A program made the translations under genes and the position numbers. Source: Chloroflexota bacterium (GTDB taxonomy: Bacteria; Chloroflexota; Dormibacteria; Dormibacterales; Dormibacteraceae). Taken from it: DNA of 64,000 nucleotides. Of this stretch, positions 21,267-31,555 are shown in pieces (the stretch's first letter is position 1; every line of letters starts with the position of its first letter). Location of the stretch: assembly GCA_005880795.1 (NCBI GenBank), contig VBGP01000008.1, forward strand, positions 1 through 64,000. The letters run 5' to 3'. Below the pieces are notes generated by a model. That model had not been told where the DNA came from. It did no database searches and worked only from the letters and a program-made list of their open reading frames with translations.

Positions 21267-21710
21267 CTAGGCGACCGGCTGGTTCTCCTCCGGCAGCAGC
21301 CACGGCAGGGCTTCAGCCAGCGGCCGCATGAGGGTGGCCTGCTGCTCCTTGTCGATGAGGTTTCCGGCGACCAGGCCAAGAGCGGCCGCGAAAGCCGCGT
21401 CCTCTGCTTTGTGCCCGATGTCGCCGTGCTCGGCCTTCCAGCTGACGAGCGCCCCGCCTGACTCAGTAAGGCCGAAAAGGTTCCGCCGGACCTCGTCCCA
21501 AGCCGGGCCGCGGCCCTCGGCTTCGATGGCGTGGGTAGCCGCCTTCTCCGCGGCGTGGATCGCATCGAGACCGTGAAGTCGCGCGTGGCGGTCCCAGCCC
21601 TGCGCGGCGCGCTCGACGCCGGCCGGCGACAGCACCCGGATGTCGTCGACGAGGCGAGACAGCGTGCGCTGATGCTCGGGGAATCCATAGCCCTCGGCGT
21701 CGACGCTCAC
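21267..21710 (-). CDS. Hypothetical soluble protein, last gene of the glycosyltransferase/radical SAM operon
   Basis: 147 residues, not recognised. It is mostly alpha-helical and acidic, with conserved-looking patches GYGFPEHQRTL, GPAWDEVRRNLFGL and WKAEHGDIGHKAEDA. It has no signal peptide, membrane helix or cysteine motif. It begins 24 bases after DoxX ends and is probably co-transcribed with it. It converges on the FAD oxidoreductase with only 4 bases between the two stop codons. Confidence 0.6.
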   Translation of the reverse strand: MSVDAEGYGFPEHQRTLSRLVDDIRVLSPAGVERAAQGWDRHARLHGLDAIHAAEKAATHAIEAEGRGPAWDEVRRNLFGLTESGGALVSWKAEHGDIGHKAEDAAFAAALGLVAGNLIDKEQQATLMRPLAEALPWLLPEENQPVA

Positions 21711-21734
21711 GGTGACTAGGCTATCAGGCGAGTC

Positions 21735-22172
21735 CTACTTCAACCACGCGGGAACCCAGCCGAACCGACCGAGCGCGAATGAACCTGGCCCTGAGACGAT
21801 GATCTGCGCGTTGGCGATGACGGCGAGGTAGTAGAGCCAGCGGAAGCCAACGTCGTTGAGTGCGAAAGCGACGGTCAGCGCCAAATTGGCGGCGAGCAGT
21901 AAGCCGAGGATTCCGGCCCACCGGGCGGCCAGGCCGAGGATCAGCAGCACCGCGACGACGGTCTCGCCCACGGCCTGCGCGAGCGCGAACGGCAGCCAGT
22001 TGGGCACCACCACCGAGGTCAGGAGCTCATGCAATCCTGGGATTGGGTTTGCCTTCGCCGTGGCGATCATCAGCGAGTGCATCCATCCGACACCTTGCCA
22101 CTTCTGGCTCGCGAAGTAGAGCCAGTAGATCCCAACCACGATTCGGAACACGCTCGGCCACGCTTCCTGCAC
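21735..22172 (-). CDS. DoxX-family membrane protein
   Basis: 145 residues with four predicted helices. The N-terminal RIVVGIYWLYFASQKWQG matches the DoxX start, including the FAxxK-like element, and LLTSVVVPNW and AVLLILGLAARWAGILG follow. DoxX proteins are quinone- or thiosulfate-related membrane subunits or of unknown role. GTG start, 16 bases after the radical SAM stop, so it is probably in the same operon. Confidence 0.8.
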   Translation of the reverse strand: MQEAWPSVFRIVVGIYWLYFASQKWQGVGWMHSLMIATAKANPIPGLHELLTSVVVPNWLPFALAQAVGETVVAVLLILGLAARWAGILGLLLAANLALTVAFALNDVGFRWLYYLAVIANAQIIVSGPGSFALGRFGWVPAWLK

Positions 22173-22188
22173 GTTCAGGCGATGGTAT

Positions 22189-23523
22189 CTACTTCAGTAC
22201 GCGCAGCACCGGGTCGGTGGCGAGCTGGAAGGCTCGAGCCGCGGGCCGCATGTGCATGCGGTTCAGGCGGTGCTGGATGGCGCCCTTCAATATCGCGGCG
22301 CGGAGCTTGTGCTCCGAAAAGTCGGTGTTGAAGAGCAGGCGATTGTGCCGCACCTTGTGCCACTCGCCATGCAGGCGGCGCTCACGCACCCGCTCGTAGA
22401 AGCCCGTGCCGGGCAGCGGATACGCGATCGTGTAGCTGACATAGTCGAGCGGAAGGCTGCTCGAGAAGTTGATGCTGCGGATCAAAGAGTCGGTCGTCTC
22501 GCCGATGTAACCGACCATGAAGAATCCCGCAGCCTTGATTCCCGCCGCGACGCACGCCTCGACCGCCGCTCGGGCCTGGTCGGGCGTGATGCCCTTCTTC
22601 ATCTCTTTCAGTACGCGTTCATCGCCCGACTCGATGCCGAAGAAGATTCGCTTGCAGCCGGCGCGGTGCATCTGCTCGAAGAGCTGCTGGTCGACGTGCG
22701 TGACGCGGCTGAGGCACTCCCAGGTCAGGGGCAGATGAGCGTCCTCGATCGCCTTCGCGAGCTCGAAAGTGCGCTTGTAGTTGAGCGTGAAAAGGTCGTC
22801 CGACATCCAGATGTGGTCGTATCCGAGCTCAGCAATCTCGCGCATCTCGTCCACGACCGATTCGACCGGCCGCGCGCTGAAGAGATCGCCAAAGACGGAT
22901 TTATGGCAGAAGTCACAGCGAAACGGACAACCTCGAGTCGACATCAAGGGCGTGGTCGCGTCCTTCCAGTGCTTGCGCCAGTAGCGGATGTACTCGTCGT
23001 TCGGCACATCTCCGCGATATGGCAGCGGCAGGTCGGACATGTCCTTGGTGCGCTGCAGCACGGTGCTTTTGATCACCTCGCCGTCGCGCTTGAAAACGAG
23101 CCCGGGGATCTCCTCGAAGCGCCGATCGTCCAGGTGCTGCATGATCGAGACGATCGTCTGCTCGCCCTCGCCGACGGCGACGAGGTCGAAGTCGTCGACA
23201 AATGTCTCGGGCTCACCCGAGGGATATGGTCCGCCAACGACTGTCAGCGCCTTGCCGCGGACCTGTCCGGCCAGCGAGAGTGCCTCGTCCTGCATCGTGA
23301 TCATGCAGTAGATTCCGATCACCGAAGGCTGGAGCTGTTCGATCTCTTCGAGGACCTCGTGGCGCTCGAGGAACGTGTGGTCTAAATGACGCACCGAGTA
23401 ACCCGCTCGGCGCAGCGAGGCGCTCAGGTACATCAGGCCGAGCGAAGGCATGATCCAGTGCCGCCCCTGCTTCGGCGCACGCTGGGGATAGACGAGCACG
23501 ACATCAACTCGTTCGTTGGTCAC
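22189..23523 (-). CDS. B12-binding-domain radical SAM protein
   Basis: 444 residues. An N-terminal cobalamin-binding-like domain (about 8-130) begins VVLVYPQRAP and contains VVGGPYPSG. The cobalamin DxHxxG signature is not obvious, so the cofactor may be absent. The radical SAM core follows with the cluster motif CPFRCDFC (Cys199, 203, 206), then GGE-like and ESGDERVL elements. The C-terminus has a short basic helix. Members methylate, cyclise or modify lipids, sugars or cofactors. The GTG start overlaps the glycosyltransferase stop (GTGA) and AAGGAGG lies upstream, so the two proteins are coupled, hinting that it modifies the same product. Confidence 0.88.
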   Translation of the reverse strand: MTNERVDVVLVYPQRAPKQGRHWIMPSLGLMYLSASLRRAGYSVRHLDHTFLERHEVLEEIEQLQPSVIGIYCMITMQDEALSLAGQVRGKALTVVGGPYPSGEPETFVDDFDLVAVGEGEQTIVSIMQHLDDRRFEEIPGLVFKRDGEVIKSTVLQRTKDMSDLPLPYRGDVPNDEYIRYWRKHWKDATTPLMSTRGCPFRCDFCHKSVFGDLFSARPVESVVDEMREIAELGYDHIWMSDDLFTLNYKRTFELAKAIEDAHLPLTWECLSRVTHVDQQLFEQMHRAGCKRIFFGIESGDERVLKEMKKGITPDQARAAVEACVAAGIKAAGFFMVGYIGETTDSLIRSINFSSSLPLDYVSYTIAYPLPGTGFYERVRERRLHGEWHKVRHNRLLFNTDFSEHKLRAAILKGAIQHRLNRMHMRPAARAFQLATDPVLRVLK

Positions 23524-26500
23524 TGCGCCTCCTTGACATTGATGTGATACGACGTGCCGGCGAATGAGCCGGCAAAGATGTAGTCCAGACCTGCCCAGTC
23601 GAAGTCGGGTGCGCTGAGCTCGCGCCCGCCATGCAGCGATGCACCCGCGAGCGAAGGCACGGACCATTCGACTCCAAGCAGTGACGACCGAACGCGGGCC
23701 CAGCTGCCGGTCACGAGGACCCAGTTTCCGAACTGAGAGCCTTTGAGAGTCGCCTCGTTCTCGGCGGCGAAGTCGTCGAACGCCGATGACTGCTCGTTGA
23801 GGATGCCGACCTCTGAATATCCCGGCGCCAACCAGATCGTCCTCACCGTCACCGACACGCCCGTCCCATCGACCGTATACGTGACCTCGATTGCACCTCG
23901 TGACGCGATCAGCGCGAACCGGTAGCCATGCGCGGCGTCGCCGCCGATCTCGTCGAGCTGGAATGTGCGCCGCCAGACGGCGCTGGTCGGAGTGGACAGA
24001 TCGACGTCGGCGACTGTCCGCGAGTAGACCCATCCGTCGGCGTAGTGGACGATCGGGACCCCGAACCCCATACCTTCGCCCGTCGCCTGCCTCGAGTCGA
24101 CCTGCAGCGCGAGACCCTTGGCGAGCGATGCGGTCTTGCCCTGAGCGGGCATGGGCGAGAGCGCCACGTCGGCCCCGGGATAGATCGACTGGAGGAGCCG
24201 TGCCTGGCCGAGCCGATAGACATAGACGGTCTTGCCGCCGCTGACCTGGTAGCTGCTCTGCTCGCCCAATGACGCAAAAGGCGGGGAGGGCGACCCGCGC
24301 GCGAGGTCCGGGAACACTTCGGTCGCGCGGTAGTAGCTGATGTTCTCCACGACGACGACGTTGACTCCGTGCGAGCGCATCCACTCCAGGGCGCTGGCAC
24401 GGTCGATTGGCAGCGACTGTGAGCCGGCGATGTCGGATGGCCGCTTTCCGCTGTAGTACGCGGTAGCCGGAGAATCGGTCAGCAGCACACCCGGCGCACC
24501 CGCCGAGGCGCGGCCGGCCGCGACCAGTCCGGCGTTGGCGTTGGCGAAGCCCCAGAAGACGGGTAGGAAGGCGACCGCCAGCATCGCAGTCGCACCGACG
24601 GCGACCAGCCTGACGACCCTTGTGTGCCTGTCCAGCGCGGCCGCCGCCAGCAGCGCCATGGCGGGCAAGGCCGGGTAGAGATAGCGGTGGCTTCCGCTGT
24701 AGACCCCGATCGCGACCAGCCCGAACACGGCGGCGAGGTAGACCACGGCAGGGAAGTAGACGAAACGCCATACGGCGGCGGCGTGGGTACGTAAGGCGGC
24801 CACGGCTCCGACCACCCCGAACGCGAAGAGCGGGAGAGCGGCCAGGCCGAAAGTCGCAGCGAGCTCGCTCAGCCGATCCATGCCACCGGCGGGGACGCTG
24901 CCTCGCGCCGACGCGGACAGCACCTCGACCGCGCCCCGAGCCACGGAATGGCTGGCGGGGGCAAAGCCCAACTGCAGGAACAGCAGCACGGCCAGTGACG
25001 GGACCGCCCACGCCACCGCTGCGCCGCGGGACCTGGCGCCGGCGCGCGCCCGGATGATCTCGACCACGGCGAAAGCTGCCGCCGCCACGACCCATATCCA
25101 CGCCTTGGTGGAGGTCACGCAGGCGAGCGCCGCGAGGAGCGCCGCGACCTTCATCCGCCCGCGCACGGCGGCGAGAGCGGCGCCGGTCAGCAGCGCGGTG
25201 AGCAGGGGCTCGATGACGGCCGATCCGGAGGTGAACAGGAAGACCGGGTTCAGGACCAGAAGCGCCACCGCCAGCCGCGCCTGGCGCACGTTTGGTGCGA
25301 GCGCATAGACGCATGCCGCGGTCGCTGCGCCCAGCAGCGCGCTCATTGCTTTCAGAGCGCCGAGCTGCTGCAGGCCGAAGAGCTTCAGCACGCCCGCCGC
25401 CAGCAAGTGGTAAGCGGGCAGCCAGGTGTCCTCCATGCCGAACAGCGGGTCGTGCAGGTGGCCGGTCGCGGCGAAGTTGGCCGCGATGAGCCAGTGGCCG
25501 TAGCCGTCCTCGAATGGCTCGGACAGCTGGGCGGCGAGCAGCAAAAGGATGGCCGCGAGCCCGAGCAGCGCCACGACCGGTGCGCCCGTCTGCACCTGCG
25601 ACAGGGCGCGCCGGCCGAGCCGGCGGAGCGTCAGCACTTCGAGGAAGTCGACGATGCTCAGCGCTGCCACGACCAGGAAGCCGAGCGCGAACATCGTGGC
25701 GTACACGGCGATGAGCGTCTGGCCCCGGGAGAGCGCGATGGGGACGAGGCCGAGCGCTATGAGACCCGCCGCGCCGTCGATCAACGCGCGCGGATCTCCC
25801 ACGCGCACGTAGGCCTGATCCCTCCACTCCTGGCCTCGCTGCACGATGCGGTGCTTGGGCGTTCGCACGAAGACTCCGCCCGGCCGCACCGAACGGCTCA
25901 GCGCGATAAGCGTGTTCAAGGACATCCCCGCGCCGACCACCTGGCAGAGGAGCGACGGAATGCCAGACCACCACTTCCGGCCGCGCCTGGTCTGCGCCGC
26001 CATGAAGCCCACCCACGGCGCGATGCCGACGAGGATCGCGATCGCGGACGAGTCGGACAGGTACCACGGCAGGCGCAGGCCCGCGGCGCCGAACGCCAGC
26101 AGTACCAGTGGGTAGCACGCGAGCTGGACGAGCATCACGGGCCCCACGCCGTAGGCGAGCAGGTGCACCGCGGCCTGGAACTTGACGGCTGCGCGGCTCC
26201 GGCTGCGCAACACCGGACCCAACAGCCGGAACGCGGTCTGAAAGCTGCCCGTCGCCCAGCGCGATTGCTGGCGCCGGTAGGCATCGATCGAGACGGGCAG
26301 CTCTTCCGGCACGACGAGGTCTTCGACGTACGCGGCCTTCCATCCGCGCAGCTGCGCCCGGTAGCTCAGGTCCAGGTCCTCGGTCAGGGTCCGCGCGCTC
26401 CATCCGCCCGCATCCTCGATCGCGGTCCGCCTCCATACGCCCGCGGTTCCGGTGAAGTTGGTGAAAAAGCCTCCGGTGGAACGCACGGCCTGTTCGACCA

Positions 26501-27080
26501 GGAAGTGAAAGTCGATCGCCATCGCCTGCAGGCGAGTGAACAGCGAATAACCCTCGTCGAGGTGACCCCATCGCGCCTGTGCAAAGGCGACGGAGGGGTC
26601 GTCGAAGGCGCCCATGATCCGGCGCAGAAAATCAGGCGGCGGCACGAAGTCGGCGTCGAAGATTGCGATGTATGGCGTATGCGTCTCCGTGAGTCCGGAG
26701 GCCAGCGCGCCCGCTTTGAAGCCGGCTCGGGAACCGCGTCGCACATGGGTGATGTGGATTTGCTTTCGGCGCCAGTGCGCCGCACGCTTGGCGATGATCT
26801 GTGTCGTCTCGTCATCCGAGTCGTCGAGAACCTGGACTTCGAAGCGGCCGTGCGGCCAGTCCATTGCGCAGACCGCGTCGATGACGCGCTCCGCGACGTA
26901 TCGCTCATTGAAGATGGGGATCTGGACGCATACGTCAGGTTCGTCGGTCACGATCGGGCGGATCAGGGCTGACTTTTTGAGTCGCACCGCGCGAAGGGTC
27001 AGGTAAAGGAGGTTCAGGCCAAACACGAAGAGCAGGACGCTGGTGGTCGCCAGGACCGCGACGGCGATGAAACCGATCAA
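23520..27080 (-). CDS. Fusion of GT2 processive glycosyltransferase and GT39/ArnT-like membrane glycosyltransferase
   Basis: 1,186 residues. One membrane helix (about 2-30) precedes a GT2 cellulose/glucomannan-synthase-like domain. That domain has LDDSDD at 85-90, FDADF at 141-145, TED at 233-235 and QQSRW at 271-275, the set needed for beta-glycan polymerisation. Helices to about 480 complete the synthase channel. The rest is a polytopic region like GT39/GT83 lipid-linked sugar transferases (HDPLFGMEDTWLPAYH loop with acidic residues), then about 250 residues of mostly beta extracellular domain. TTG 27080 overlaps the nucleotidyltransferase stop; no stronger start exists downstream. The open frame continues upstream but its composition is unnatural there. 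Confidence 0.85.
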   Translation of the reverse strand: MIGFIAVAVLATTSVLLFVFGLNLLYLTLRAVRLKKSALIRPIVTDEPDVCVQIPIFNERYVAERVIDAVCAMDWPHGRFEVQVLDDSDDETTQIIAKRAAHWRRKQIHITHVRRGSRAGFKAGALASGLTETHTPYIAIFDADFVPPPDFLRRIMGAFDDPSVAFAQARWGHLDEGYSLFTRLQAMAIDFHFLVEQAVRSTGGFFTNFTGTAGVWRRTAIEDAGGWSARTLTEDLDLSYRAQLRGWKAAYVEDLVVPEELPVSIDAYRRQQSRWATGSFQTAFRLLGPVLRSRSRAAVKFQAAVHLLAYGVGPVMLVQLACYPLVLLAFGAAGLRLPWYLSDSSAIAILVGIAPWVGFMAAQTRRGRKWWSGIPSLLCQVVGAGMSLNTLIALSRSVRPGGVFVRTPKHRIVQRGQEWRDQAYVRVGDPRALIDGAAGLIALGLVPIALSRGQTLIAVYATMFALGFLVVAALSIVDFLEVLTLRRLGRRALSQVQTGAPVVALLGLAAILLLLAAQLSEPFEDGYGHWLIAANFAATGHLHDPLFGMEDTWLPAYHLLAAGVLKLFGLQQLGALKAMSALLGAATAACVYALAPNVRQARLAVALLVLNPVFLFTSGSAVIEPLLTALLTGAALAAVRGRMKVAALLAALACVTSTKAWIWVVAAAAFAVVEIIRARAGARSRGAAVAWAVPSLAVLLFLQLGFAPASHSVARGAVEVLSASARGSVPAGGMDRLSELAATFGLAALPLFAFGVVGAVAALRTHAAAVWRFVYFPAVVYLAAVFGLVAIGVYSGSHRYLYPALPAMALLAAAALDRHTRVVRLVAVGATAMLAVAFLPVFWGFANANAGLVAAGRASAGAPGVLLTDSPATAYYSGKRPSDIAGSQSLPIDRASALEWMRSHGVNVVVVENISYYRATEVFPDLARGSPSPPFASLGEQSSYQVSGGKTVYVYRLGQARLLQSIYPGADVALSPMPAQGKTASLAKGLALQVDSRQATGEGMGFGVPIVHYADGWVYSRTVADVDLSTPTSAVWRRTFQLDEIGGDAAHGYRFALIASRGAIEVTYTVDGTGVSVTVRTIWLAPGYSEVGILNEQSSAFDDFAAENEATLKGSQFGNWVLVTGSWARVRSSLLGVEWSVPSLAGASLHGGRELSAPDFDWAGLDYIFAGSFAGTSYHINVKEAQ

Positions 27081-27985
27081 TTGGAATCGAACAACGTATA
27101 GGGCCGCATGGTGGCGCGGACGAATGCCACCCGCGCCAGCGCGTCCGGCCGGTTGCGTCGAGTCCATTGCATGTAGTGCCACGCAGACTCGCCCAACATC
27201 CGCGCGGGCCAATCGAGGGCGGACGGGTAAAGCCTCTTCGGAACGCGACGTCGCGGGGGATCGATCAGAAGTGGCGCAGGCCTCTGTGCGAGCTGCGGAA
27301 AGTGGTCGAGCAGGATTGGATTGGCGTTGATCACGCCACGGATGGCGTCGAGGCCGAAGACAGGTTCGCCGATGAGGAGCTCGAATGCCATGTCCTCGTC
27401 CTGTCGCACGAGCGGCAGGCACTGAGACCGCTCGAGGATGAGGTTGGCGGTCATCAGGCGTGGGGCGATCGGACGGCGGGTCAGGTCGTCCACCGGCTTG
27501 TGCCGATGCCTGAGCGCGTGCAGGACGCCGAGGACGTTCACGATCACGTACGCGAGGTGGCGGTGGGCGTCATCGACGATCAGGTTCAGGTCGACGTCGT
27601 CGGACTCACGAAAGCCGCCGCTCGCCAGCGACCCCGCGATCGAAACGCTGGTGATGAACGGCGCAACCGATACCAGAGTGCGAATGAAATCGACGGTGAG
27701 GCCGATATAGGCGCCTGAATCTCTGTTGTGCGTCAGAGAGCGACCGCGGATCGCAGGCGCACGATCGATGGCGGCCCGCTCGACGACGAGATCCTCGGCG
27801 ATCGCCAGCTCGGGGTCGGCGGCGATCGCCCACCGGACGTCGGCTTCCGCGACTGGCCCGCCAAGACACAGCTCCGCGAGCCGCCCGGGCGGAACGGCAT
27901 ACCCACGCCGGTCGAGCAGCGCGATCGTGCGCCGAACGCGCTCCCCGACAGGGCGCGCGGCCACCGCCGCGTAGCCGACGCTCAC
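27077..27985 (-). CDS. Nucleotidyltransferase-fold protein
   Basis: 302 residues. At about 112-130 lies the nucleotidyltransferase signature GSLASGGFRESDDVDL, with the metal-binding DxD preserved. The flanks are helical, with no membrane segment. Members transfer a nucleotide to sugars, proteins or RNA. Being first in an operon with a polymerising glycosyltransferase, it could activate or adenylylate a component of that pathway, which is inference. GTG start without Shine-Dalgarno, divergent from pruA with a gap of 67 bases. Its stop overlaps the next start as TTGA. Confidence 0.75.
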   Translation of the reverse strand: MSVGYAAVAARPVGERVRRTIALLDRRGYAVPPGRLAELCLGGPVAEADVRWAIAADPELAIAEDLVVERAAIDRAPAIRGRSLTHNRDSGAYIGLTVDFIRTLVSVAPFITSVSIAGSLASGGFRESDDVDLNLIVDDAHRHLAYVIVNVLGVLHALRHRHKPVDDLTRRPIAPRLMTANLILERSQCLPLVRQDEDMAFELLIGEPVFGLDAIRGVINANPILLDHFPQLAQRPAPLLIDPPRRRVPKRLYPSALDWPARMLGESAWHYMQWTRRNRPDALARVAFVRATMRPYTLFDSN

Positions 27986-29705: not shown

Positions 29706-30462
29706 GACCGTTCGGTTCGAGGTCGATGGGGCGGTCGTCACCGTCACCATCGAGCGCCCGCAGGTCCGGAACGCGGTCGACGCCGGGACGGCGGCGGCGC
29801 TGGCCGAGAGCTTCCGCCGCTTCGACGCCGATGACAGCCTGTCGGTCGCGATCCTCACAGGGGCGGGCGGCAACTTCTGTGCGGGCTTTGACCTGAAGGC
29901 GCTCGCGGCCGGCGCGGGCAACAGGTTGAGCGAAACGGGTGAGGGTCCGATGGGCCCGACGCGGATGATGCTGGGCAAGCCGGTGATCGCGGCGATCGAG
30001 GGCTACGCCGTCGCCGGTGGGTTGGAGCTTGCGCTGTGGTGCGACCTCAGGGTGGCCGCGCGTGGCGCGACGCTGGGCGTCTTCAATCGCCGGTTTGGCG
30101 TGCCCCTGATCGACCTGGGCACGGTGCGCCTGCCCCGCCTCGTCGGGCACGGTCGGGCCCTCGACCTGATCCTTACTGGCCGCCCCGTGCCGGCCGAGGA
30201 AGCGCTGCAAATCGGTCTCATCGAGCGGTTGGTCGAGCCCGGCCGCGCGCTTCCCGAGGCGCAAGAGCTCGGCCGGCAGATCGCTGGAATGCCCCAGGCC
30301 GGGCTGCGCGCCGACCGGCTAAGCGCAGTGAACCAGTGGTCGCTCAGCTGGGGGGAGGCGATGCGCCAGGAGCACCGGGGTGGGATCGAAGTCATCGCCT
30401 CGGGCGAAGCTCAAGAGGGCGCGCGTCGATTTGCCGAAGGGTCAGGACGTCACGGGAAGTGA
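29701..30462 (+). CDS. Enoyl-CoA hydratase/isomerase (crotonase) family protein, start codon unresolved
   Basis: 254 codons, normal crotonase length. The N-terminus VRFEVDGAVVTVTIERP, the oxyanion loop NFCAGFDLKAL and GYAVAGGLELALWCDLRVAA are all present. The first catalytic Glu (GGLEL) is kept. The second, normally in QPEINLG, is replaced (GVPLIDLG), so hydratase activity is doubtful. No ATG, GTG or TTG lies in frame between the upstream TGA (about 29626) and 29926, which is 75 codons inside the domain. The frame begins at the pruA stop, offset by one. Either a rare start codon, a +1 shift or a sequence error is involved. The coordinate 29701 marks where homology begins. Confidence 0.75.
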   Translation, partial: SKTVRFEVDGAVVTVTIERPQVRNAVDAGTAAALAESFRRFDADDSLSVAILTGAGGNFCAGFDLKALAAGAGNRLSETGEGPMGPTRMMLGKPVIAAIEGYAVAGGLELALWCDLRVAARGATLGVFNRRFGVPLIDLGTVRLPRLVGHGRALDLILTGRPVPAEEALQIGLIERLVEPGRALPEAQELGRQIAGMPQAGLRADRLSAVNQWSLSWGEAMRQEHRGGIEVIASGEAQEGARRFAEGSGRHGK

Positions 30463-31555
30463 AAGCCACGACAGAGAGCAGCGCAACCGCGCCCAGCTCC
30501 GCCGCGATCACCGGGACAGGGCCCCAGATGGGTTCGCCTTCCACGGCCACCACGCCGGCCAGGAGGTAGATCCAGGTCCACGCCGGCGCGTTCGCGCGCA
30601 GGCAGAGCCAAGCGGCGAGGCCCAGCATGGCGAGGTCGTCGAGATGAACGTACGGGGTGGCGAGCATGCCACCGACGAGCGCACAGACGTAAATCCACTC
30701 GATGCCGCGGCGGCGCAGGCGGTATGCGAGCGCCAGGGTCCAGATCCCGATGGCCACCTGGAGCGGACGTGCGCCATCGCCGAGCAAGTAGGCGAGCGTG
30801 AGCTCACGGTTCACCGGCACGCTTGCGGCGAAGCTGAGGCGCGCCTGGTACGCGCCGAGGCCGTCGCTGCCCAGCGCGATGGCCGAGGCAGCGGCAAGCA
30901 CACCCAGCGCGATCACGCTGCCGAGAAATGCACGGTCATGCCGCCCTGCCAGCAGGGCAAGGGGTGCCAGGAAAGCGAGCTGCGGCTTGAGCGCGAGCAG
31001 TCCGAGCACGATGCCTGCGAGGAGCGGTCGATTCGCGCGCAGGAGCGCGTAAGAGCCGGCCACGCCTAGCGCCACGAACATTCCAGGCTGGCCGAGCTGC
31101 AAGCCGTAGATGACCGGCAGCCATCCCACCGCAGCGGCGAGGTAGATCACGCGCGCGCGACCGGCGCCAGGTGCGGCCAGGTACCACGTGCAGACCAGGG
31201 CTGCCGCGAGCAGGGTGCTCCAGATCCAGTACGCGACCGGATATGGCAGCGGCGTCAAGGGCAGGGCCGCCCAAGCCACAGGCGGTGGGCTGATGTAACG
31301 GGCAAGCTCGGCAACCTTGATCCCAGACCCGAGCAAGTCGAGCTGCGCTTGCTGGATCGAAAGGTCGTAGATCGAGGCCCAGCCGTGCGCGAGCCCGATC
31401 TTCGCGGCCACGTAATAGAAGGTGAAGTCGTTGTGGAAGTGATCCGCCGCATAGGCCGCCGCCCACTGGTACAGGTCGAAGATGGCGAAGAGGGCGGCGG
31501 CGGCCCCGCCGGCGGCAGCGCCGAGGTTCCGCCACCGTGTCGACGCCCTAACCAC
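30392..31555 (-). CDS. GT87/DUF2029-like polyprenyl-phosphate-sugar glycosyltransferase
   Basis: 387 residues with about ten predicted helices. The first extracytoplasmic loop carries HNDFTFYYVAAKIG, with Asp and Tyr placed as in the DUF2029/GT87 mannosyltransferases. YISPPPVAWAALPLTPLPY follows, then LQLGQPGMFVALG and LLALKPQL, which are typical of the family. These enzymes move a sugar from a polyprenyl phosphate to a wall or lipid acceptor outside the membrane. Its 3' end overlaps the convergent crotonase gene by 71 bases. The substrate is unknown. Confidence 0.75.
   Translation of the reverse strand: MVRASTRWRNLGAAAGGAAAALFAIFDLYQWAAAYAADHFHNDFTFYYVAAKIGLAHGWASIYDLSIQQAQLDLLGSGIKVAELARYISPPPVAWAALPLTPLPYPVAYWIWSTLLAAALVCTWYLAAPGAGRARVIYLAAAVGWLPVIYGLQLGQPGMFVALGVAGSYALLRANRPLLAGIVLGLLALKPQLAFLAPLALLAGRHDRAFLGSVIALGVLAAASAIALGSDGLGAYQARLSFAASVPVNRELTLAYLLGDGARPLQVAIGIWTLALAYRLRRRGIEWIYVCALVGGMLATPYVHLDDLAMLGLAAWLCLRANAPAWTWIYLLAGVVAVEGEPIWGPVPVIAAELGAVALLSVVAFTSRDVLTLRQIDARPLELRPRR

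Follow-up and report, generated by a model that had tools for sequence, protein, structure and literature searches.

A conserved Dormibacterota operon pairing a GT2-containing fusion protein with a B12-binding radical SAM enzyme

In the bacteriohopanetetrol cyclitol ether pathway, the glycosyltransferase HpnI adds N-acetylglucosamine to a lipid, HpnK deacetylates, and the radical S-adenosylmethionine (SAM) enzyme HpnJ makes the cyclitol ether (PMC12583986). By analogy, HpnI-HpnK-HpnJ may offer the nearest described logic for the operon reported here, which lies on contig VBGP01000008.1 of a Candidatus (Ca.) Dormibacterota genome from soil (3.22 Mb, 95.5% complete). The stretch analysed, hereafter the window, comprises positions 1-64,000 of that contig. 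The operon holds five minus-strand genes in the order nucleotidyltransferase (NT), a large fusion protein (GT2F), a B12-binding radical SAM enzyme (rSAM), a DoxX-family membrane protein and a hypothetical protein. GT2F joins a family 2 glycosyltransferase (GT2) domain to a second polytopic membrane half, GT-C-like by prediction, and a C-terminal beta domain. The enzymes themselves fall into known superfamilies. Their combination appears undescribed, as do the beta domain, which has no name, and the linkage of the rSAM in two directions set out below, and no description of this gene set was found in the open-licence literature.

A conserved core of four genes

The NT gene (27077..27985, 302 amino acids) and the GT2F gene (23520..27080, 1186 amino acids, TTG start) overlap by 4 bases, TCAA at 27077-27080, which reads TTGA on the coding strand. 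GT2F in turn overlaps the rSAM gene (22189..23523, 444 amino acids, GTG start) by 4 bases, TCAC at 23520-23523, or GTGA on the coding strand. Gaps of 16 and 24 bases separate rSAM from DoxX (21735..22172, 145 amino acids) and DoxX from the hypothetical gene (21267..21710, 147 amino acids). The open reading frame (ORF) list and the junction bases thus match the five-gene unit that a first-pass annotation had proposed from the sequence alone. Flanking genes on either side (one up to 21262, the others from 28002/28053) lie on the plus strand and therefore delimit the unit; an aldehyde dehydrogenase gene is the divergent neighbour and an FAD-dependent reductase gene the convergent one.

The fusion and rSAM were searched for in 61 genomes, and 20 neighbourhoods from nine genera of one family were fetched. 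Adjacent orthologues of the two genes were present in 13 of the 14 genera sampled from the host family; none were found in other families of the host class in the same search. The order NT, fusion, rSAM, DoxX was held in every fetched neighbourhood (20/20), with the 4-base overlap kept at the NT/GT2F junction in 15 and at the GT2F/rSAM junction in 16. The fusions of these relatives are 49-91% identical, and gene order and overlaps kept across such distances are more than would be expected by chance. The first-pass annotation had proposed that gene order conserved across several genera would support a dedicated pathway and that scattered homologues would speak against one; the homologues are clustered.

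Divergent genera (L080-L083) have lost both the flanking genes and the hypothetical gene but keep the other four, so the core comprises NT, the fusion, rSAM and DoxX. DoxX was present in 20/20 neighbourhoods and the hypothetical gene in 16/20, with 69-96% identity in near genera and no counterpart in the divergent ones. Of the five genes originally proposed as a unit, DoxX therefore belongs to the conserved core, whereas the hypothetical gene does not and is better regarded as accessory. No match came from either genome of one genus or from two further genomes, one of these genomes being only 71% complete, and for this reason the locus appears, as judged from the assemblies, to be dispensable in the lineage. 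One contig labelled Bacillota (L110, JAJPKS010000153.1) bears the Dormibacterota operon and matches a genome of the same family (G036); it is probably a mislabelled assembly.

Partners of the radical SAM enzyme in other lineages

Outside the host family, the contig scan returned a single rSAM, a 41% match on an actinomycetote contig (L119). Adjoining it is a free-standing protein homologous to the beta domain of the fusion (E 1.3e-17). A sample of the phylum Actinomycetota yielded three further stand-alone beta proteins, and a class sample of 249 genomes gave eight strong and two borderline matches, L119 included. In a small class of the phylum, made up of three small genomes, the beta gene is directly upstream of a related rSAM in all three, the junctions being two 4-base overlaps and one gap of about 2 bases, and in two of the three a GT87-type GT-C gene lies within 5 kb. 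In the other class, beta is directly upstream of rSAM in 8/8 loci. Seven of these show the order GT-C, beta, rSAM, the eighth starting at a contig end. This is the order of the fusion halves followed by their rSAM. Homology between the GT-C half of the fusion and the actinomycetote GT-C genes was not shown by hhalign (probability 5.7%, E 0.007), and the parallel is therefore one of gene order and type only. In L119 and in L168-L173, GT-C and beta are followed downstream by as many as three distinct B12-type radical SAM genes in a row, which suggests several radical steps on one product.

A second linkage was found in Chloroflexota. Among 400 genomes of that phylum, NT at high score is confined to the host family, with seven weak matches outside it; an eighth outside NT locus (G042) was found via its rSAM. 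An rSAM of a sister clade lies near the distant NT in 6/8 of these loci, or 5/7 as an unbiased count once the locus picked by its rSAM is set aside. By position, rSAM directly follows NT on the same strand in four of the NT loci. The genes near these NT loci include Polysacc_synt flippases (3), Wzy_C (1), Bac_transf (1) and glycosyltransferases.

Phylogenetic analysis placed the rSAM of the window together with its beta-linked counterparts from actinomycetotes (97/97). Together these join the NT-linked rSAMs (97/95), apart from other B12-binding radical SAM enzymes of the same genomes. Long branches in this tree were flagged by the program, and the clade also takes in a second rSAM from the actinomycetote clusters. 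It follows from the tree that the Dormibacterota operon joins partners that elsewhere travel separately with this rSAM clade.

Domain make-up of the gene products

GT2F is encoded in a single frame, 1158-1201 amino acids long and intact in 20/20 fetched relatives. The possibility, raised in the first-pass annotation, that a missed stop codon had merged two adjacent genes was consequently rejected, and the fusion is genuine. One relative (G033/L099) has a short gap with a change of frame close to the junction; this break has the look of a local defect and not of two separate genes. The catalytic GT2 domain (residues 40-335, 26076..26963) matches PF13641 (7.6e-27) and PF13632 above cut-off and is BcsA/PgaC-like, resembling cellulose and PNAG synthases. 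Its DAD (142-144), TED (233-235) and QxxRW (271-275) motifs are invariant in 20 relatives, and about five helices follow before the second polytopic half, so that GT2F has the DxD, TED, QxxRW and membrane helices of GT2 membrane synthases. The best match in the Protein Data Bank (PDB) is BcsA, and the membrane GT2 6yv7 also matches. GT2F remains below the NCBIfam equivalog cut-offs of CelA, its best match (122.6 of 699.1 bits), PgaC (82.1 of 422.3) and HpnI (38.8 of 310).

The second half (residues 497-960, 24201..25592) is predicted to be GT-C-like from its helix pattern and from an acidic first loop carrying PFED, as seen in hydropathy, loop charge and invariant columns. A first helix is followed by an external loop with invariant PFED (522-525), D/E-rich and K/R-poor by hydropathy and loop charge across 20 sequences, then by many helices and an SGSHRYLYP loop. 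A soluble segment predicted to lie outside, with an invariant TDSP, ends the half. It had been labelled GT39 in the first-pass annotation. However, the window protein has no Pfam match in this half, PMT and PMT_2 included, and 19 members gave only stray single-member matches to other families (E 0.035-0.079). Comparison by hhalign with PMT_2-type proteins of the host genome was not significant (E 0.05-0.22). As there is no profile support whatever, the GT39 label was dropped.

The C-terminal beta domain (residues 976-1186, 23523..24155, about 210 residues) was recognised earlier as a beta exodomain. Its presence stands, and it can be recast as an unnamed domain with a predicted galactose-mutarotase-like supersandwich fold that elsewhere is a separate protein. 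The AlphaFold2 (AF2) model is of high confidence (predicted local distance difference test (pLDDT) 91.7, predicted TM-score 0.90), and Foldseek places it with YeaD, HI1317, GH36, GH97 and PL33 domains (E 1e-4 to 1e-2), the best of these matches reaching modest TM-scores (0.39-0.56 over the query). The domain itself is matched by nothing in Pfam or NCBIfam. Its signatures are EGxGxG, LNE and R-x-E. Galactose mutarotase uses a catalytic His and Glu; the alignments, which include the stand-alone homologues, contain invariant Glu in LNE and R-x-E and no invariant His. Hydropathy and loop charge predict that the fused domain is extracytoplasmic.

The rSAM matches PF04055 (Radical_SAM, 5.6e-27, 95.4 bits) and the B12-binding PF02310 (1.6e-16, 60.7 bits), both above cut-off. 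The first-pass annotation had named the radical SAM enzyme correctly and had missed its B12-binding domain. Together with the CxxxCxxC cluster motif (C199, C203, C206; 22906..22929), which is invariant in the rSAM alignments, the two domains place the protein in the B12-binding radical SAM superfamily and make it a putative cobalamin-using enzyme. Among relatives it is 73-96% identical. It scores far below all NCBIfam cut-offs (MgmA TIGR04014, HpnJ, PhpK, BchE and AprD4; best 153 of 360 bits) and falls between known families. Its best PDB neighbour is 9ccb, a code that occurs in a paper on the glutamine methylase MgmA. The B12-binding domain occurs also in non-methylating enzymes such as BchE and AprD4, and methylation is therefore not implied for rSAM. 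In one contig the rSAM gene (L117:10001-11610) carries an insertion, some 270 bases long, that splits it around residue 264-269.

NT is a candidate Pol-beta-type nucleotidyltransferase. The identification made at first pass is consistent with an invariant motif, G118-S119-x10-D130-x-D132 (27590..27634), and is left short of a family assignment: no curated Pfam or NCBIfam family is above cut-off, and NTP_transf_2 and Polbeta match only below threshold. The block GSLASGGF(x3)DD[VI]DLN is invariant across 20 relatives, with G118, L120, A121, D130 and D132 invariant in the distant homologues too. Foldseek searches with the AF2 model (pLDDT 85.3) gave best matches that are all nucleotidyltransferases (AadA/MNT-type), albeit weak ones (E 0.018 or worse).

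DoxX matches PF07681 above cut-off (6.7e-6); the hypothetical protein and its counterparts have no match in Pfam or NCBIfam. In many genera the interval between rSAM and DoxX holds inserted genes, and the insert varies between genera. A beta-propeller-like lipoprotein occupies this interval in many Dormibacterota genera (e.g. L074:11221-12126, L077:11530-12453), and one such lipoprotein weakly matches, well short of the cut-off, the NCBIfam MmpL3/TtfA complex stabiliser model (E 4e-4). In L148 and L150 the gene after rSAM encodes a GSDH beta-propeller. In L080 and L081, which belong to one genus, the lipoprotein is replaced by a 152-amino-acid membrane protein with HEGMH and no Pfam match, which could be a small integral membrane metalloprotease.

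Elsewhere in the window, a GT87-type GT-C gene (30392-31555) lies about 2.4 kb from the operon in a neighbourhood kept in near relatives; GT87-type genes are likewise found near beta and rSAM genes in Actinomycetota. No RNA families or tRNAs were found in the 64-kb window. Two long ORFs were discounted, 23520-27422 as the GT2F frame extended upstream into NT and 22189-26571 as an out-of-frame extension of the rSAM ORF into the GT2F gene.

Possible function and comparison with known systems

We consider it somewhat better than an even bet (a probability of roughly 0.55) that the locus encodes a membrane system which builds and modifies a surface or lipid-linked saccharide. In such a system NT would nucleotidylate (or sense) a substrate, and the GT2 part would convert a nucleotide sugar at the cytoplasmic side into a glycan or lipid-linked sugar. 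The rSAM would make a radical change to the sugar or lipid, which might be C-methylation, ring contraction or deoxygenation. The GT-C-like half would transfer a lipid-linked sugar at the outer face, the mutarotase-like domain would bind the sugar or glycan under processing, and DoxX would serve as an accessory membrane protein. The predicted fold of the beta domain, like that of sugar-handling mutarotase-like domains, speaks for this reading. The first-pass annotation had likewise suggested a modified surface glycan or glycolipid. This linkage gains support from distant NT homologues near B12-binding rSAM genes in Wzx/Wzy-type clusters and from beta and rSAM beside GT-C genes in Actinomycetota.

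Several points weigh against this interpretation. No homologue of the locus is known to have been characterised; none of the GT-C families is matched significantly by the GT-C half; and B12-binding radical SAM enzymes act on very varied substrates, including proteins, lipids and antibiotics. Scores for the distant NT homologues are low (20-30 bits), but the homology is strengthened by the context that these loci have in common, a sister-clade rSAM. Moreover, the stand-alone beta homologues have no obvious signal peptide (by eye), yet the fused domain looks extracytoplasmic; the beta partner may therefore be cytoplasmic.

More tentatively, GT-C, the unnamed mutarotase-like domain and the B12-binding radical SAM enzyme could be the parts of a single conserved machine that occurs in two phyla, in fused or separate form. 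It would carry out radical editing of a lipid-linked sugar, with the beta domain recognising the edited sugar. Dormibacterota would then have condensed this machine with a GT2 synthase and NT into one operon. This wider proposal is possible, and we hold it with more doubt than confidence.

The strongest alternative, although in our view an unlikely one, is a glycolipid head-group pathway in the manner of HpnI and HpnJ, in which a membrane lipid would receive one sugar, to be rearranged by rSAM with no polymer being made. In HpnI-HpnK-HpnJ there is a precedent for such a pairing, a glycosyltransferase and a radical SAM enzyme that work on a sugar borne by a lipid. The models of HpnJ and HpnI are matched below threshold by rSAM and GT2, and the GT2 domain also matches a further membrane GT2, 6yv7. 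However, CelA/BcsA and PgaC are closer to the GT2 domain than HpnI is, and homologues of NT occur in polymer clusters of Wzx/Wzy type. No hopene cyclase is above cut-off in the host genome (TIGR01507 reaches 36.4 of 431.1 bits, a partial match), which makes a hopanoid acceptor unlikely and weakens the case for a hopanoid pathway as such.

We regard it as improbable that rSAM modifies an envelope lipoprotein or other protein and that the fusion glycosylates the same target, in the manner of protein O-mannosylation. Such a role would fit the nearest rSAM families, which include protein modifiers (TIGR04014/MgmA, ApyD), the protein O-mannosyltransferases among GT-C enzymes, and the beta-propeller-like lipoproteins or other exported proteins encoded between rSAM and DoxX in many genera. 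These inserts nevertheless differ between genera, no constant small substrate-peptide gene was found, and GT39 membership is not supported. Clustering as housekeeping synteny with no common function is very improbable, for although the flanks (aldehyde dehydrogenase, branched-chain aminotransferase (BCAT), FAD reductase, GT87) likewise keep their synteny among near genera, they are lost in divergent ones where the four core genes stay with mostly overlapping junctions, and the parts associate again in other lineages.

The saccharide interpretation provides a testable lead to a saccharide or glycolipid made by Ca. Dormibacterota, which in this analysis was represented by metagenome assemblies only. 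Two linkages, each in a different lineage, also connect glycosyltransferases with a clade of B12-binding radical SAM enzymes that is uncharacterised. Moreover, the analysis defines a protein domain that has no Pfam or NCBIfam entry and a candidate nucleotidyltransferase family that travels with the rSAM clade.

Among comparable known systems, BcsA/CelA and PgaC have, as GT2F has, a GT2 domain with DAD, TED and QxxRW followed by membrane helices; however, GT2F is far below the CelA cut-off, carries a GT-C-like half and a beta domain as fusion partners, and has no PilZ domain detectable by Pfam. The rSAM has the two-domain architecture and CxxxCxxC motif of MgmA (TIGR04014), PhpK, BchE, HpnJ and AprD4, but scores below their cut-offs and falls in its own clade with the beta-linked and NT-linked enzymes. 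With the galactose mutarotase-like domains of YeaD, HI1317, GH36, GH97 and PL33 the beta domain has the predicted fold in common, whereas it has no sequence family match, is 7-16% identical and gives no evidence of mutarotase catalytic residues. In the Wzx/Wzy-type polysaccharide clusters of Chloroflexota, a distantly homologous NT is close to a sister-clade rSAM, as here; the window unit differs in having no flippase or polymerase gene, in the fusion of its GT2 and GT-C-like halves and in the added beta domain. Finally, the HpnI-HpnK-HpnJ pathway likewise unites a glycosyltransferase with a radical SAM enzyme, and both of its models are matched below threshold, far below the equivalog cut-offs. 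Compared with that pathway, the Dormibacterota operon has no HpnK-like gene and adds a GT-C-like half, a beta domain and NT.

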